33,582 nt of DNA from Muribaculaceae bacterium (GTDB taxonomy: Bacteria; Bacteroidota; Bacteroidia; Bacteroidales; Muribaculaceae), in the NCBI GenBank assembly GCA_029060625.1, contig JAIDTO010000063.1, positions 1-33,582 on the forward strand, in the 5' to 3' direction. The position numbers and the translations under genes were made by a program. A model generated the notes under the pieces. That model was given only the letters and a program-made list of their open reading frames with translations, was not told where the DNA came from and did no database searches. Shown here in pieces: positions 4,153 to 29,344 of the stretch. Each line of letters starts with the position of its first letter. Position 1 is the first letter of the stretch.

Positions 4153-5478
4153 ATGATACCCGTCATGAATAAGGCTGCAAGGACATATTTTATACTGAGT
4201 TTTACGCTGATTGCGTCAGTTTTGACGCTTTCCGCAAAAGACCTTAAAGGAAAACTGGTGAAGGTGGGAGACGGATACTCGGCGACCTCAGTCAATACTG
4301 CAGTATTCAGGGGGAGCTCCTTGGCCACTCATGGCGATACCCAATATATCGCTTATTATGATGGTGACGGGTATGTCATGCTTGGCAAAAGGAAAATAGG
4401 GAGTGATGACTGGACTCTTAATAAGACTCAATACAAAGGAAATATCAAGGATGCCCACAATGTGATCAGCATTGGGGTGGACGGAGATGGATATATCCAC
4501 GCATCTTTTGACCATCATGGGCATCCCCTGCGATATGCAAGGTCGGTTGCTCCAGGTAGTCTTGACCTTGGCGAGATGATTCCGATGACCGGAGTCGACG
4601 AGCAAGATGTCACTTACCCGGAATTCTACACTATGCCTGAAGGAGATATGATATTCGCTTACAGATCCGGTGCTTCAGGACGTGGCAACCTCGTATTGAA
4701 CCGTTACGATACAGAAACGAAAACATGGTCACGCCTGCATGACGTGCTGATCGACGGAGAAGGGGATCGCAATGCTTACTGGCAGATGTTTGCTGACCCC
4801 AAGGGCACTTTACATCTCTCATGGGTATGGCGCGAAACTTGGCTTGTGGAGACGAATCATGACCTGTGCTACGCCAGGTCGGATGATGGGGGAAAGACTT
4901 GGAAACGAAGTGACGGAAGCCTATATCAACTGCCTATCACCCAGTCTACCGCAGAGATAGCATGGGAGATACCTCAGAAATCTGAATTGATCAACCAGAC
5001 AAGTATGACAGCAGATGCTGACGGACATCCCTTTATAGCTACCTACTGGAGAGACCAGGACAGCACAATACCGCAATATAGGCTTGTATGGCATGATGGA
5101 GGCCAGTGGCAAATGAGCACTGTAGGAGAACGTAAAACCCCATTCTCCCTTTCCGGCGGAGGAACGAAGATGATACCAATATCACGCCCCAGGATAGTTT
5201 CGGATGGAAAGAAAGCATGTTATGTATTTCGCGATGCAGAGCGAGGAAGCAAAGTGAGTGTGGCGTATACCCCTCATCTTGGGGAAAAAGACTGGACTGT
5301 GACAGACCTGACAGACTTCAGCGTAGATGCATGGGAGCCTTCCCATGACCTTAACCTCTGGAATGACAGGCGTAAGCTTAACGTGTTTGTGCAGACGAGC
5401 CACCAGGGGGATGGTGAAAAGGTGGCGGATGTGCAGGAGAAGACCCAGCCTGTGTATGTGCTGGAAATTGATTTTTAA
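4153..5478 (+). CDS. Secreted BNR-4 repeat protein (PL24/PL25/GH145-like beta-propeller)
   Basis: The 441-residue protein has a hydrophobic signal segment. Translation may start at the second Met, position 4165, giving MNKAARTYFILSFTLIASVL. The body looks like a BNR-4 seven-bladed propeller. Visible features are DAHNVISIGVDGDGYIHASFDHH, the doublet HHGHPLRYARS, DVTYPEFYTMPEGDMIFAYRSG, SWVWRET, and a BNR/Asp-box-like LCYARSDDGGKTWKRSDG. This fold includes ulvan-type lyases (PL24, PL25) and the GH145 rhamnosidase, which use histidines near the N-terminal blades. The HNVISI and DHHGHPL histidines are candidate active-site residues. It probably cleaves a uronic-acid-containing glycan, but lyase and hydrolase activity cannot be separated from sequence alone. 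The GT2 gene follows 33 nt later. Confidence 0.75.
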   Translation: MIPVMNKAARTYFILSFTLIASVLTLSAKDLKGKLVKVGDGYSATSVNTAVFRGSSLATHGDTQYIAYYDGDGYVMLGKRKIGSDDWTLNKTQYKGNIKDAHNVISIGVDGDGYIHASFDHHGHPLRYARSVAPGSLDLGEMIPMTGVDEQDVTYPEFYTMPEGDMIFAYRSGASGRGNLVLNRYDTETKTWSRLHDVLIDGEGDRNAYWQMFADPKGTLHLSWVWRETWLVETNHDLCYARSDDGGKTWKRSDGSLYQLPITQSTAEIAWEIPQKSELINQTSMTADADGHPFIATYWRDQDSTIPQYRLVWHDGGQWQMSTVGERKTPFSLSGGGTKMIPISRPRIVSDGKKACYVFRDAERGSKVSVAYTPHLGEKDWTVTDLTDFSVDAWEPSHDLNLWNDRRKLNVFVQTSHQGDGEKVADVQEKTQPVYVLEIDF

Positions 5479-5505
5479 TTCACAATGCATAATGCATAAT
5501 TTATA
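5478..5505 (+). repeat. Heptanucleotide tandem repeat (ATGCATA-type) between two genes
   Basis: Four 7-nt units, ATTCACA, ATGCATA, ATGCATA and ATTTATA, start on the last base of the upstream stop codon and end just before the next ATG. This is one of several intergenic heptamer arrays in the window. Confidence 0.6.
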
Positions 5506-5511
5506 ATCGAC

Positions 5512-6261
5512 ATGGATGGAAGACCTCTCATATCAGTGGTGACGATCACTTATAATGCTTCGGAAACACTTCCTATCACAATGGAGTCGGTCAAGGAGCA
5601 GACTTTTAAGGACTTCGAGCACGTAGTTATTGATGGGGCATCGACTGATGACACAATAGGGATAGCCCGCAAAATGGGTACTCCGTTGCTTCGTATCGTC
5701 AGCGAGCCGGACCATGGACTCTACGATGCCATGAACAAGGGAATAAAATTTGCGCGTGGGCGTTATCTACTCTTTCTTAATTCCGGCGACAAATTTCATA
5801 CTCCGGATACTCTGCAGGCATATGCAGAAGCAATAGAAAGAAAAAATCCGGATATAATTTATGGAGATACCGACATTGTCGATATTGAAGGAAAGAGACT
5901 TGGACCGCGCCATCTATCTGCTCCTGAACTCCTGACAGTGGATAGCTTCAGCAAGGGTATGCTGATATGTCATCAGGCATTTATGGTGAAAAAGGATATT
6001 GCTCCTCTTTATGATACAGATTATAGGTTTTCTGCCGATTATGATTGGTGTATTCGATGCATAAAGGCATCTCGTGCCGGCAATAGGGTCAATCTTCATC
6101 GCGTTACGATCGACTATCTATCGGACGGACTGACCGATAAAAATAAAAAGGCATCCCTCGTGGAGCGATTCAAGATTATGGCGGCACACTATGGGGCAAT
6201 GAAGGCGATAGCTTCACATATGAGTTTTATTCCGAGGGCTATTAAACGGGGAAAACTTTAA
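5512..6261 (+). CDS. Family 2 glycosyltransferase
   Basis: The 249-residue protein has a GT-A fold typical of small GT2 transferases. ISVVTITYNASETLPITMESV is the nucleotide-binding N-terminus and VVIDGASTDDT (D41) is the family signature. SEPDHGLYDAMNKGI (64-78) is the usual 'yDAmNkGi' motif, and FLNSGD (88-93) holds the metal-binding DxD equivalent. FSADYDWCIRC (about 172) supplies the acidic 'DYDw' motif before the acceptor helix. It is probably cytoplasmic or peripheral, adding a sugar to a lipid-linked or surface glycan. It is unusual for such a gene to follow a secreted glycan-degrading protein rather than lie in a capsule or LPS cluster. Donor and acceptor are unknown. Confidence 0.85.
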   Translation: MDGRPLISVVTITYNASETLPITMESVKEQTFKDFEHVVIDGASTDDTIGIARKMGTPLLRIVSEPDHGLYDAMNKGIKFARGRYLLFLNSGDKFHTPDTLQAYAEAIERKNPDIIYGDTDIVDIEGKRLGPRHLSAPELLTVDSFSKGMLICHQAFMVKKDIAPLYDTDYRFSADYDWCIRCIKASRAGNRVNLHRVTIDYLSDGLTDKNKKASLVERFKIMAAHYGAMKAIASHMSFIPRAIKRGKL

Positions 6262-9276: not shown

Positions 9277-9720
9277 GACGGGGCCTTAGTTGCATTTCCA
9301 CTTAATGGACTTGCACAAGGTTGGAATTTCGGCGCAGAGGCCGGATATGTTAACAACACACTTGCTGTGGAGGAATACGAATCAACCGCCCGAAATGGCT
9401 TTAAGATCGGTGTGAACGCTGAATATACCCTAAGCAATCATATCTCTTTTGAATCTGGACTTGCATATATCCGCAAGGGTGCAACAACTTCGGGTGATAA
9501 TATGGGATATGTAAGAATCAGCTCCATAAAATTTGCAGAGATGAATTATCTTCAGATCCCTCTGATGGCTGGGTATAAATTCGATTTGGGTAAACAGTTT
9601 AGTATTAAACCGGAAGCGGGGGGATACTTCGCAGCGGGCATAAACGGCGACTCTTTCGTCACAGGACTGGATAATTTCAATCAGCCATATGAAGCGAGAG
9701 TAGCGACATTTTTTTTGTGA
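9277..9720 (+). pseudogene. Remnant of an outer-membrane beta-barrel protein (PorT/OMP_b-brl type)
   Basis: The frame opens directly after a TGA with no start codon. It reads through what looks like the end of a signal peptide (ALVAFPLNGLAQG) into WNFGAEAGYVNNTLAVEEYE. It then shows alternating barrel strands: GFKIGVNAEYTLSNHISFES, GLAYIRKG, MNYLQIPLMAGYKFDLGKQF and SIKPEAGGYFAAGINGD. This is the normal pattern of small 8-strand Bacteroidetes barrels. It stops after ARVATFFL, on a run of eight Ts, well before the final strands and the aromatic C-terminus expected of the family. Both ends are therefore missing. A terminator follows. An internal GTG at 9367 could start a shorter product, but that would lack an export signal. 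Confidence 0.65.
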
Positions 9721-12505: not shown

Positions 12506-13564
12506 TCAAAAGAGGTGGCAGTGCATAAGGCGGCCGTCGGAGTCGCGGAGGTGCATTCCGTTGCCTTCGCAGTAGCGCCAGAATGAGCATTCGGCGCATT
12601 TGCCGGTCTTCATCCATTCCCTGTCGCGGTATGGCTGGAATTTATTTTTCCATACTTCCCAGAAGTCATCCTTGTATATATTGCCCTGGCGGTAGTCGGC
12701 GCGGATACTTGGGCATGAACCGATTCCACCGTCAAGAAGCACCGATGCCACTGACACTCCTGCCTGGCAGGTGAAGAAACTGTCGCGGGCAATCCCTTCA
12801 TAACTTCCGAGAAAGCCCTCGCAACAGAATGATGCCTTGATGCGACCTTCTTTGCGGGTGGCTTTTATAAACTCCATCAGGGTCTTCATGTCATCATGCC
12901 CCATCTTGAACTCCTCATAATTTGCGGCACGCCCTGAAGGGAAGATTGTAAAGAGGCGCCATGCCTTAACTCCGCATGAGATAAGGTGTTCTTTAATTTC
13001 GGTCAGACGGTGGAGTGTACGTTGATTTACGCAAGTCACGACATCGAAATTGATGTCAGGGGTGGCAGCTACCATGCGGATCGCGGCGGTGGCACGCTCG
13101 AAAGATGCAGGATGGCAACGCATCCAGTTGTGGTCGTCCTTCAGTCCGTCGAGACTTATTGTCATAGCGTGGAGTCCTGCTCTGCGCAGACTTTGGAATC
13201 GTTGCGGAGTAAGTGCCAGTCCATTTGAGACGAATCCCCATGGGTAGCCACGGTCGTAGAGTTGACGCCCTACGTACTCAAGATCTTTTCTGAGAAGTGG
13301 TTCGCCACCTGTAATGACGATGTTCACGTGGTTTGGATTCACGTGAGGGGTCAGCGAGTCTATAACCTTCAGGAAGTCTTCCGCAGGCATATCGGGAATG
13401 ATCGAGGAGCTCTTGCAGTCGCTTCCGCAATGGCGGCATGAGAGATTGCACCGCCATGTGCATTCCCAAAAAAGCTGCCGCAAGGGGTGCTCGCGGCATT
13501 TCTCATGTTTTATCTTTCTATATAGCTCAAGTCCGATACGTTGACGTAGTGAAATACTTTTCAT
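12506..13564 (-). CDS. Radical SAM/SPASM enzyme of an rSAM/lipoprotein system
   Basis: The 352-residue protein has the radical SAM motif CX3CX2C at C39, C43 and C46 (WRCNLSCRHCGSDC). GGEPLLRKD (86-94) and the substrate-proximal SNGLALT follow. The C-terminus has a SPASM-like set of cysteines for auxiliary Fe-S clusters: C266, C284 (GIGSC), C323, C326, C332 (GKCAECSFWRYC) and C349. SPASM proteins usually modify peptides or proteins, for example thioether bonds or other side-chain changes. Its start codon overlaps the stop of the upstream lipoprotein gene (ATGA), indicating translational coupling. This gene pair matches the rSAM/lipoprotein tandem I recall from TIGRFAM models of Bacteroidetes (radical SAM partner plus putative lipoprotein). 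The reaction and substrate are not established; the lipoprotein is the obvious candidate. Confidence 0.85.
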   Translation of the reverse strand: MKSISLRQRIGLELYRKIKHEKCREHPLRQLFWECTWRCNLSCRHCGSDCKSSSIIPDMPAEDFLKVIDSLTPHVNPNHVNIVITGGEPLLRKDLEYVGRQLYDRGYPWGFVSNGLALTPQRFQSLRRAGLHAMTISLDGLKDDHNWMRCHPASFERATAAIRMVAATPDINFDVVTCVNQRTLHRLTEIKEHLISCGVKAWRLFTIFPSGRAANYEEFKMGHDDMKTLMEFIKATRKEGRIKASFCCEGFLGSYEGIARDSFFTCQAGVSVASVLLDGGIGSCPSIRADYRQGNIYKDDFWEVWKNKFQPYRDREWMKTGKCAECSFWRYCEGNGMHLRDSDGRLMHCHLF

Positions 13565-14025
13565 TCTTTATTTTTATTTTTCGACTTAAGAATAAAATCC
13601 ACTTTCTTTTCAGCATGCCCTCTGTACCAAGTGTCAGCGTATTTATCCCTGTCCTTGTATTCAAGCTCAACTACAATTGAATCTGGCTCCAAATCACCTT
13701 GCTCCGGAATGCAGACAACCTTAGCCTTATGTAAAATATCGTGTGATGAGATGGTATAGTCCCCATTATTATTAGTTTTGTCTGTCAAATTTGTGAGATA
13801 AGAGGGTTCTGTGTGTGGGCATACTCGAATCTCTGCATTTACTACATCTTCCCCGTTTTCATCGGTGACAGTGCCTTTGATTTCGAAACTACCTGTCGGC
13901 ATTCCATACATGCACGGATAATCCGGGTCATCCGGTGAAGAGGAGCAACTGAACCCGAGGAGTGATAGAAGTACCGAGCATATGCCCGTCAGGAATGAGG
14001 AGATGTGTTTTTTGATAAGTTTCAT
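13561..14025 (-). CDS. Lipoprotein partner of the radical SAM enzyme
   Basis: I choose the ATG at 14025, giving 154 residues. It starts a proper lipoprotein signal (MKLIKKHISSFLTGICSVLL then SLLGFSC, lipobox C27), whereas the longer frame back to 14088 adds an implausible Asn/Tyr-rich head. After the lipobox come CSSSPDDPDYPCMYGMPTGS, then a CarboxypepD_reg-like Ig-type domain (EIKGTVTDENGEDVVNAEIR ... NNNGDYTI), and a charged C-terminus. Remaining cysteines are C38, C69 and C105; C38 lies in the CMYGMPTG motif. The protein is expected in the outer or inner membrane, facing the periplasm. Its gene end overlaps the radical SAM start by 4 nt, and the sigma-barrel gene ends 119 nt upstream on the same strand. 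It may be the enzyme's substrate, but this is inference. Confidence 0.82.
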   Translation of the reverse strand: MKLIKKHISSFLTGICSVLLSLLGFSCSSSPDDPDYPCMYGMPTGSFEIKGTVTDENGEDVVNAEIRVCPHTEPSYLTNLTDKTNNNGDYTISSHDILHKAKVVCIPEQGDLEPDSIVVELEYKDRDKYADTWYRGHAEKKVDFILKSKNKNKE

Positions 14026-14144
14026 GTCGATTGTATTATTATTATTATATTCTATATTATAGATACGGTATTCTTGTCGATACTGCATGGTGCATTAAAA
14101 AATATTTTATGTTTGTATTTTCGTTGCAGTAGACGCATTAAACG

Positions 14145-15803
14145 CTACCAGCTGAAGCGGAACCCGAGTGGTATAGAGATGCTCCAGGGCTCGTCGTCTG
14201 TCCAGATGTTAGGAATCGTACACTCCTGCGGGAAGTGATAGCGTAATGTGGGTTCCACGAAGATATCGACATTCTTTGAGATCCGGAAAGCCGCACCTAC
14301 ACTTCCTCCTACAGCCCATACTGCCTTCGATTTGAATGTTCCGCTATGAGCGTAGGGATTCGGAACTATCTGGGCATAGGAGTAAACCGGAATGGCGACC
14401 TTCCCTCCCAGTGATCCGTATAGTTTTATTCGTGGGGAAGTGTAGGCGTAAAGATTCACTTTGAGTGGAATATCTATGTAGTGCCAATGGCATGTCGACG
14501 GCTCTTTATAACGTTCGAAGTCGGTATGCAGGTATGAATATCCTATGCCTGACTCTAGAGCGAGCCATGACGTGAAATGCTTCTCGGCTGTGAGGGCGAA
14601 AGTGATGGGTAGATAATGTCTCCTTGGAGCCGTCGCGAGGGAGTATTCCAAATCTTCCGTTATAGGCGATATCCTGGCCTGAGAAGGTACTTTGTCATTG
14701 TCAGTGCCATGAGACGGTCCTTCAGGATCATGGAATGGGGGATCAGTGGCAAAGTTTTCATCGGCTGTATTGTTGAAACTGATTATTCCGGGATCGAATG
14801 ATATTCCGGCAGACCATCCTTTATCTTTCGACCTTTTACGTGGCAGGTCGGCAAATAGCCTGTCGAAGTCATTTGTATTTTTATCTTCGAGAGGCTTTAA
14901 AGGTATATATTCATGTTTCTCGGATGAAATGGATTCACCTATAGAATCGGTTTCTATCGAAGATTTGCTTTCAGGAACAGCCGGAGATATTGAAGTCACA
15001 TTCCCTGCAGCAGCGGGGTCTTCCGAGACTGCGGCCGTTATGGCAGGCTGCGTATGTATTGGCAGCATGTTGGCAATGGGTGCTGCTTTCTTTTCAGTTA
15101 GGCCTTCCGAGTCAATTTTTGTGGGGCTTGCTTGCTTTGAAATATGTTTTTTTTGTCTTGCATCAGCCGAGATAGAATCTCGTGTATATAGCTCATCGGC
15201 TTTTCTGGTAAGGTAGAGCAGTCCGGAGCAGGCGATGAGGAGCAGAATGGATATGAGTCCGGCGCGGAGCTGATAGTCTTTGATCAGCTCACGCATACGT
15301 ATTTTTGCATGGAATAGCTGTGATGATGAGGAATTAGGAGCTATTCCGAGTATTTCCGATATCTCCTTATGTGACTTGCCTTCGAGCACTGCAAGGCGGA
15401 ACACTTTTTGATATCCTTCCGGAAGTTTCCTGATTAGGGTTTCAAGAGTATGGAAATCGATGATGTCATCTATCTCAGGTTCTTCTACGATCTCAGGTAT
15501 TTCTTCAAGAATGGATGTTACTGTCTGTGCCTGAAGATATTTTAGAGAGAGATTTTTCATGATCGTAGCGAGCCAGAACTCTATGTGTTCAGGATCGCGG
15601 AGCGTGTCAATGCGGGTGAAAGCGGCTATGAATCCGTCGTGAAGGATATCGTGTGCACTGTCCCGGTCGCTGATATATCGCGATATAACATGGAGCATAC
15701 GTGGAGCGAAGCGGGTATAGAGGATGCTCATGGCATCTCTATCCCCACTCCTACACTCCTCCACGAGTGTCTGATTATCGATATTTAGGTCAAGGCTTTT
15801 CAC
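14145..15803 (-). CDS. ECF sigma factor fused to a transmembrane helix and outer-membrane beta-barrel
   Basis: This is one uninterrupted 552-residue frame. Residues 15-90 are sigma region 2 (EECRSGDRDAMSILYTRFAP, DSAHDILHDGFIAAFTRI, FWLATIMKNLSLKYL). Residues 115-178 are sigma region 4 with its helix-turn-helix (LPEGYQKVFRLAVLEGKSHK, EISEILGIAPNSSSSQLFHA). A single transmembrane helix follows at 180-199 (RAGLISILLLIACSGLLYLT), preceded by positive charges. Residues 200-328 are a polar, Pro/Ser-rich linker. Residues 329-552 are a small beta-barrel ending in alternating strands and an aromatic terminus (ISIPLGFRFSW). The layout implies cytoplasmic DNA/RNAP-binding domains tethered through the periplasm to the outer membrane. 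Sigma activity may need proteolytic release. In Bacteroidetes these two halves are usually separate neighbouring genes. It is upstream of, and co-directional with, the lipoprotein and radical SAM genes. Confidence 0.85.
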   Translation of the reverse strand: MKSLDLNIDNQTLVEECRSGDRDAMSILYTRFAPRMLHVISRYISDRDSAHDILHDGFIAAFTRIDTLRDPEHIEFWLATIMKNLSLKYLQAQTVTSILEEIPEIVEEPEIDDIIDFHTLETLIRKLPEGYQKVFRLAVLEGKSHKEISEILGIAPNSSSSQLFHAKIRMRELIKDYQLRAGLISILLLIACSGLLYLTRKADELYTRDSISADARQKKHISKQASPTKIDSEGLTEKKAAPIANMLPIHTQPAITAAVSEDPAAAGNVTSISPAVPESKSSIETDSIGESISSEKHEYIPLKPLEDKNTNDFDRLFADLPRKRSKDKGWSAGISFDPGIISFNNTADENFATDPPFHDPEGPSHGTDNDKVPSQARISPITEDLEYSLATAPRRHYLPITFALTAEKHFTSWLALESGIGYSYLHTDFERYKEPSTCHWHYIDIPLKVNLYAYTSPRIKLYGSLGGKVAIPVYSYAQIVPNPYAHSGTFKSKAVWAVGGSVGAAFRISKNVDIFVEPTLRYHFPQECTIPNIWTDDEPWSISIPLGFRFSW

Positions 15804-15868
15804 ATTATATATGATACAGTATCACCCTGAATACTGCATCATCATATGAAAAAATTGATTTGGGTATG

Positions 15869-28660: not shown

Positions 28661-29344
28661 ATGAAGAGGCTCGCCACAATCATATTGCTGACCGCACTCT
28701 GCATCGGGGCTTCACAGAAAGCTACGGCGCAGGAAGACTATCGGTTTGATGCCGGTGGTGGCATAGGTATGACCGGATATCTTGGCGACGCCAACACTTC
28801 GAGTCTCTGGAGCAATCCCGGAATAGACGGGATGTTGCTGTTTCGCTATATGCGCAGCCCGAGGATTGCATTCAAGACCGGATTCTATGTAGGAACTCTT
28901 TCCGGCAATACGGAAGACATGACTGATGTCTTGCCGGATGCTGCGCAGTTTAAGTTTTCTACGACGTTTTTTGAACTCTGCGAGATGTTTGAGTTTAATT
29001 TTTTCAACTACGGGATAGGGGAGAAATATAGGAAACTGAAACGTTGGAGTCCCTATATTACAGGAGGACTTGGAGCAACAGTATGGACGACAGACGGCTA
29101 TACAGGAGTAGCTGTGACGCTACCTTTCGGCATAGGCGCCAAATATAAGATAAATGAGAGGCTAAACCTGGGGCTTGAATTCCTCATGAAGAAGACCTTC
29201 TCCGATAAGTTGGATGGCACGATGCTGTCTGACCCTCACGCAATAAAGTCGGGTTTTGCTAAGAACACCGACTGGTACTCAACTCTGTCAGTGACGCTCA
29301 GCTATGAGTTTTCAAAGCGGTGTGCCACTTGCAACTATAGATAA
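28661..29344 (+). CDS. DUF6089-type small outer-membrane beta-barrel
   Basis: The 227-residue protein has a signal peptide (MKRLATIILLTALCIGASQK, then ATAQ). Barrel strands follow: YRFDAGGGIGMTGYLGDANT, LLFRYMRSPRIAFKTGFYVG, KFSTTFFELCEMFEFNFFNY, RWSPYITGGLGATVW, and a final strand STLSVTLSYEFS. This pattern fits the DUF6089 proteins that lie next to uppS and bamA in Bacteroidetes. The start lies 6 nt after the DUF6242 stop, and uppS follows after 11 nt, so the three are co-transcribed. It is expected in the outer membrane. No function can be assigned; proximity to bamA suggests an envelope role. Confidence 0.78.
   Translation: MKRLATIILLTALCIGASQKATAQEDYRFDAGGGIGMTGYLGDANTSSLWSNPGIDGMLLFRYMRSPRIAFKTGFYVGTLSGNTEDMTDVLPDAAQFKFSTTFFELCEMFEFNFFNYGIGEKYRKLKRWSPYITGGLGATVWTTDGYTGVAVTLPFGIGAKYKINERLNLGLEFLMKKTFSDKLDGTMLSDPHAIKSGFAKNTDWYSTLSVTLSYEFSKRCATCNYR

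Follow-up and report, generated by a model that had tools for sequence, protein, structure and literature searches.

A Dma3-type sigma factor-barrel protein of a Muribaculaceae bacterium with paired promoter-like sites before its own gene and a neighbouring lipoprotein gene

Introduction

Can an extracytoplasmic function (ECF) sigma factor and an outer-membrane barrel work as one polypeptide, and which genes would such a chain control? The question is raised by a gene in a stretch of 33,582 nucleotides from Muribaculaceae bacterium (assembly GCA_029060625.1, contig JAIDTO010000063.1), hereafter the window, in which a single open reading frame (ORF) encodes a sigma factor, an inner-membrane helix, a linker and a beta-barrel. 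The layout itself is not new, since Dma3 is in print, described as a Dma protein of Bacteroides thetaiotaomicron (locus bt_2778-2779) that carries a sigma factor at its own N-terminus (PMC13088901). We file the window protein as Dma3-type, BT_2778 being known here by its published description, and we favour, with a probability of roughly 0.7, the reading that it is an envelope switch in one chain, regulating itself and an adjacent cargo operon.

Results

The gene of the window protein is a single intact ORF, and the transmembrane (TM) helix follows immediately C-terminal of sigma region 4 (Table 1). An earlier note on this DNA had proposed that sigma factor, inner-membrane helix and barrel share one frame with no room for an anti-sigma domain. 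The first of these claims is borne out by the single ORF, the domain matches and a structure model; as to the second, no anti-sigma domain was found between the sigma part and the TM helix. Fused proteins were compared in an alignment (A1) of 41 of 43 fused ORFs, from which L090, whose C-terminus lies in another frame, and L002, which duplicates the entry for L009, were omitted. A TM helix was predicted in all 41 proteins, obeying the positive-inside rule in 40 of them, and the predicted TM peak began 11-20 residues past Q162 of region 4. In the predicted structure, the last helix of sigma4 and the membrane helix formed one continuous helix (residues 156-215), and the C-terminal part was predicted as an OmpA/OprF-like barrel, which we read as eight-stranded and which ends in F-S-W. 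A soluble fold for this part, raised in the earlier note, was ruled out by the barrel model and by the homology to split Dma-like proteins given below. Two further matches to outer-membrane barrel families lie elsewhere in the window, at 28685-29311 and 9286-9621, both on the plus strand.

Judged by the ratio of nonsynonymous to synonymous substitution rates (dN/dS) against four close relatives, sigma factor and barrel are both constrained, the linker is much less so, and the sigma factor is the most constrained part of the chain. Values were 0.035-0.054 for the sigma part, 0.08-0.17 for the barrel and 0.34-0.65 for the linker, and they scattered from 0.07 to 0.84 over the 24-codon TM stretch; all are rough, with dS reaching 2.9 for L121-L123 and being uneven for L120 (0.436 in the sigma part vs 0.067 in the barrel).

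A scan of genomes gave 453 relatives, of which the best 80 were kept; this set of 80 leans towards Muribaculaceae and Prevotella. The fused or split state of loci was decided by translation, as frame lengths from the genome search crossed stop codons in some split pairs. A single closed ORF free of stops was found in 75 of these 80 loci, two loci (L143 and L144) run off their contigs, and three (L155, L175 and L190) have one in-frame stop. In L087 (G249:C13) and L088 (G453:C32) the sigma-TM part and the barrel lie in overlapping, different frames, and we regard both as broken or frameshifted fusion copies. At five loci (L081, L082, L083, L096 and L097) the sigma gene and the Dma-like gene are split, sharing one frame that is interrupted by a single stop codon. 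Records titled Staphylococcus sp. (L152) and Lachnoclostridium sp. (L169) also hold such Bacteroidales-type genes; these titles look mislabelled.

A quick tree built from the sigma part placed all 65 fused rows in one clade (Shimodaira-Hasegawa-like approximate likelihood-ratio test, 100), nested among separately encoded sigma factors, many of which adjoin Dma-like genes. Of 170 rows, thinning at 80% identity left 105 for the tree, to which 2 outgroup rows were added; L087, L049, L003, L088, L050, L090 and non-related sigma factors were left out. The barrel was homologous to those of 17 split Dma-like proteins (hhalign, probability 100, E = 1.4e-52), the match being limited to the barrel end, and the N-terminal segment that precedes the TM helix in split Dma-like proteins had no counterpart in the 41 aligned fused proteins. 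This anti-sigma segment appears to be absent because the short distance from Q162 to the TM peak leaves no room for it. The simplest reading of these comparisons is one fusion, in which the sigma factor replaced the anti-sigma segment of a neighbouring Dma-like gene. Several independent fusions within the group were also considered and rejected, the tree being consistent with one origin. In another Bacteroidales family, L089 (2107-3327, minus strand) encodes a sigma factor, an anti-sigma-like segment and a TM helix with no barrel match, and is probably a separate fusion event.

When the DNA upstream of the fused gene was aligned between the window and eight relatives, a conserved element was found ahead of the GTG start that recurs before the downstream lipoprotein gene. 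Both copies, P1 and P2 (Table 1), resemble an ECF promoter, with TGCAGT as the putative -35 and TATC as the putative -10 word. The exact pattern GCAGTAT-N13-GTATC has two sites in the host assembly (3.09 Mb, 79% complete), which are P1 and P2, and the reversed pattern has none. With one mismatch allowed, four further sites appeared in the host genome vs one in the reversed control, and these were treated as background. A search with gaps of 10-16 gave a third match in the window, at 4274-4301 on the minus strand, with a longer gap.

Among the best 80 loci, 64 of 73 fused genes are preceded by TGCAGT[AC]T, whereas it occurs on the opposite strand in none of the 73 and in 0.5% of 2644 random windows. 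It was also present at most 200 nt past the stop codon in 44 of 72 fused loci (opposite strand, 1), and 43 of the 72 have it on both sides of the gene. The shorter -35 word TGCAGT was found on both sides in 55 of 72 loci, and in 40 of those the -10 could be classed on both sides; the class (GGAC vs [TC]ATC) was concordant in all 40, with identical words in 32. After the Dma-like gene of split loci, TGCAGT was seen in 1 of 20, where no matching -10 accompanied it.

The -10 word varied between clades, whose lists were made by hand. In the clade of the window, the block 16 nt after TGCAGT was TATC at 16 of 21 sites before the fused gene and at 7 of 13 after it (CATC in 2 and 2), in a second Muribaculaceae group it was CATC in 8 of 13 and 11 of 13 (TATC in 2 and 2), and in a Prevotella group GGAC in 16 of 24 and 21 of 23, the word being less clear in a four-locus Bacteroides group. 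Between clades, identity was 57-66% for sigma4 and 66-77% for its stretch 145-165, vs 34-52% for residues 58-90 of sigma2 (sub-region labels assigned in this analysis), values that fit a constant -35 and a changing -10.

The lipoprotein and radical S-adenosylmethionine (SAM) genes that follow P2 overlap by 4 bp. A mechanical ORF start for the lipoprotein, at 14088 (MQYRQEY...), falls at P2. M22 (14025) is probably the true start, because the start at 14088 adjoins P2 and would put it inside the gene. Downstream frames of some relatives also begin with MQSF or MQSL at such a promoter-like site.

Table 1. Features of the window around the fused gene, with positions counted from its first letter
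Feature	Position	Strand	Remarks
P1, candidate ECF promoter	15813..15838	(-)	TGCAGTAT-N13-GTATC (TGCAGT-N16-TATC); ends 9 nt before GTG start of fused gene
Fused gene, ECF sigma factor - TM helix - linker - outer-membrane barrel	14145..15803	(-)	552 aa, stop included
Sigma region 2	15525..15722	(-)	residues 28-93
Sigma region 4	15294..15446	(-)	residues 120-170
Inner-membrane helix	15204..15260	(-)	about residues 182-200, predicted
Periplasmic linker, predicted disordered	14817..15203	(-)	about residues 201-329; predicted local distance difference test (pLDDT) <50 over most of it; dN/dS 0.34-0.65
Outer-membrane beta-barrel	14148..14816	(-)	residues 330-552; homology to split Dma-like barrels and model
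P2, second copy of the P1 element	14062..14087	(-)	between fused gene and lipoprotein gene
Lipoprotein, TIGR04134 lipo_with_rSAM	13561..14025	(-)	profile match 2.1e-21; likely true start 14025 (M22)
Radical SAM/SPASM enzyme, TIGR04133 rSAM_w_lipo	12506..13564	(-)	profile match 1.2e-174; linkage in relatives

A TIGR04134-like lipoprotein gene and a TIGR04133-like radical SAM gene, both on the strand of the fused gene, were found in 13 of 23 loci (L120-L142), and three of the ten loci that do not have both genes offer less than 1.3 kb of downstream DNA. The two genes vary in arrangement and in distance from the fused gene, with the lipoprotein gene upstream in L138, the radical SAM gene first in L130 and both about 4 kb off in L133. 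TIGR04133 was rejected as an obligate partner, as it occurs at nine loci in 8 of 79 Muribaculaceae genomes, of which two lie beside a fused gene within the 1.5-kb flank. Elsewhere the next genes include those for another radical SAM/SPASM family (in some cases preceded by a lipoprotein), a methyltransferase, a CotH-kinase protein and a serpin, as judged from gene clusters profiled through one or two members each; the serpin gene (L135:7023-8294) and the CotH-kinase gene (L147:3405-4829) come directly after the sigma-barrel fusion. We also counted radical-SAM-like ORFs, defined as stop-to-stop frames of at least 200 aa with CxxxCxxC in the first 130 residues, three examples of which were confirmed by profile. 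Of the 61 fused loci offering 2 kb or more, 36 have such an ORF downstream on the strand of the fused gene (opposite strand, 0); on the upstream side it was seen in 1 of 60, both strands counted. After split Dma-like genes it was found on the same strand in 0 of 20 loci and on the opposite strand in 1 of 20 (L202).

The host genome holds related genes on other contigs. Contig C44 (L237, G000:C44) carries a second sigma-barrel fusion, of which the contig end cuts the N-terminus alone; behind it lie a gene whose product has a lipoprotein-like signal sequence and a TGCAGT-N15-GGAC site. The spacing of this GGAC-type site is one shorter than the fixed N16 pattern, which misses it for that reason. 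On contig C317 (L238, G000:C317), a sigma-TM frame that may or may not belong to another fusion is cut off where the contig stops; a barrel-like fragment (5364-5534) lies just before a radical-SAM-like gene at 5609.

Discussion

The architecture of the chain, a tree consistent with one origin, the lack of an anti-sigma segment and the paired promoter-like sites are supported by sequence, and the following course is proposed for the window protein. By descent, a sigma gene would have fused to the neighbouring Dma-like gene with loss of the anti-sigma segment. In the predicted topology, the sigma factor lies in the cytoplasm at the end of the inner-membrane helix, and a disordered tether crosses the periplasm to the outer-membrane barrel. 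The tethered sigma factor may be kept off by its -35-recognition helix running straight into the membrane helix, as suggested by the continuous helix of the model. Its release may be proteolytic, by analogy with IutY of Pseudomonas putida (ECF243), which is described as a sigma/anti-sigma fusion released by Prc and RseP (PMC8999054): disturbance of the barrel would lead to cleavage in or near the membrane, and the free sigma factor would read TGCAGT-N16-TATC before its own gene (autoregulation) and before the lipoprotein/radical-SAM operon (cargo).

Several observations weigh against this course. The loci are mutually related and were partly grouped by hand, so that the counts are not independent. 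TGCAGT[AC]T is missing upstream in 9 of 73 and downstream in 28 of 72 fused loci of the best-80 set, and in a second genome set TGCAGT lies upstream of only 24 of 41 fused genes. The three -10 classes (TATC, CATC and GGAC) were picked after inspection of the sites; 8 of the 40 doubly classed pairs mix TATC with CATC, and among the 55 loci where TGCAGT flanks the gene on either side, 15 have at least one -10 that falls into none of the classes. TGCAGT also stands upstream of 9 of 48 distinct non-fused sigma rows, at least six of them with an ATTTA-type -10, and the -35 word is therefore probably older than the fusion. The full-chain model has a predicted template modelling score (pTM) of 0.38, at which the relative placement of domains is unreliable.

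As alternatives to a working switch, the gene itself or its sigma half might be doubted. Split sigma/Dma-like pairs are common, including the five separated by one stop in the same frame, an in-frame stop interrupts three of the 80 fused loci, and two more copies are frame-split, all of which might suggest that an error of sequencing or assembly, or chance read-through, has joined two adjacent genes. However, single ORFs at 75 of the best 80 loci, in many separate assemblies, the one clade of fused rows and the constraint on both halves exclude an artefact, missed stop or frameshift, and we give this view practically no credence; the concerns of the earlier note, that an error had joined two genes or that homologues would always be split at residues 180-200, are thereby laid to rest. 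A vestigial sigma half, in a protein that acts in the outer membrane alone, is very improbable as well: nothing was found in its favour, dN/dS is lowest in that half, and the two promoter-like sites change in concert between clades.

TGCAGT-N16-TATC, an element found by sequence comparison, might also be bound by a different regulator, or act as an RNA element, at both genes. This is improbable in view of the two-block, ECF-like layout with a spacer of mostly 16 nt, the variation of the downstream block between clades as in sigma2, the strand specificity upstream (0 of 73 on the opposite strand) and the presence of the element ahead of some separately encoded sister sigma factors. A larger share of doubt, though still a minor one, concerns activity of the sigma factor while tethered, in which case RNA polymerase would come to the membrane and the barrel, with no cleavage involved, would do no more than position the sigma factor or set its conformation. 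In favour of this possibility, activators that work while tethered are known (ToxR, CadC), and no anti-sigma segment was found in the chain. Against it, the continuous sigma4-TM helix of the model should hinder -35 binding, and the characterised fusion IutY is described as requiring proteolysis (PMC8999054). We thus prefer the Dma3-type switch whose sigma factor would be set free.

What is added to the known Dma3 layout is the wiring, that is, matching promoter-like sites that suggest the controlled genes, and the paired sites give a concrete prediction of targets for such proteins, those of Bacteroides included. Our data also point to a sigma factor held off in the absence of an anti-sigma domain, through a recognition helix that extends into the membrane helix, to a joint change of promoter and sigma factor, and to a link of envelope sensing with radical-SAM or lipoprotein cargo in gut Bacteroidales. 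More tentatively, and with more doubt than confidence, sigma-barrel fusions could be self-contained, insulated envelope switches, in which the chain monitors its state in the outer membrane, perhaps whether its barrel has folded or been assembled (signalled by an exposed unfolded chain with an aromatic C-terminus), and switches on only itself and the neighbouring cargo operon via a private promoter code, the cargo (radical-SAM enzymes with lipoproteins, methyltransferase, CotH-kinase protein or serpin) being swapped between lineages while the switch stays constant. No paper on the names TIGR04133/TIGR04134, or on TGCAGT with an ECF sigma factor in Bacteroid literature, was found in a search that left most subscription journals outside, and we therefore do not claim the promoter pair as unpublished.

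The novelty implied by the earlier note does not stand, as barrel-ended anti-sigma factors, Dma3 and the proteolysis-activated fusion IutY are already described in print, and its comparison with cell-surface signalling gives way to one with the Dma family, not the TonB type. As in Dma3, an N-terminal sigma factor is carried on a Dma-like chain with no separate sigma factor adjacent, and a TM helix, a disordered tether and a C-terminal beta-barrel are present by prediction. Bacteroides faecis is a close relative of B. thetaiotaomicron. In the tree, the fused clade includes the fused protein of B. faecis (L166), the sequence of BT_2778 itself having been outside the comparison; the L166 gene is preceded by TGCAGT-N16-CATC and followed by TGCAGT-N16-AATC. 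In the four-row group of L166 the next genes are alike by BLAST, the one profiled being a methyltransferase, whereas those of the window encode a lipoprotein and a radical SAM enzyme; in B. caecigallinarum (L146) the next gene is other than that of the L166 group.

Other sigma factors with extensions share less of the layout. The outer-membrane receptor of IutY is a separate protein. IutY resembles the window protein in joining a sigma factor to a membrane-bound regulator in one chain, and differs by containing an anti-sigma factor, according to its published description (PMC8999054). The actinobacterial groups ECF48, ECF52 and ECF53 (SCO4117) likewise have an ECF sigma factor with a C-terminal transmembrane extension, but carry a zinc-finger anti-sigma-like domain, and their available descriptions mention no barrel.

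Closest in their membrane part are the Dma proteins with a separate sigma factor. Dma1 and Dma2 are described as an anti-sigma domain, a TM helix, a disordered tether and a barrel, encoded adjacent to ECF21 sigma factors (PMC13088901), and a barrel-ended anti-sigma factor of similar kind is described in Phocaeicola vulgatus (PMC9308784), which we take to be Reo of the ecfO-reo pair. Dma1 and Dma2 (with Das1 and Das2) and the P. vulgatus factor thus share with the window protein the TM helix, the disordered tether and the C-terminal barrel, the latter being common to the Dma1/Dma2 kind by the match to split Dma-like proteins given above. Dma1 and Dma2 differ, as far as described, in their separate sigma factor and in the anti-sigma domain N-terminal to the TM helix, for which the window protein has no equivalent. 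The same-strand radical-SAM-like ORF after the window gene likewise sets it apart from the 20 split Dma-like loci, while its sigma factor is related to those encoded beside Dma-like genes, among which the fused clade is nested.
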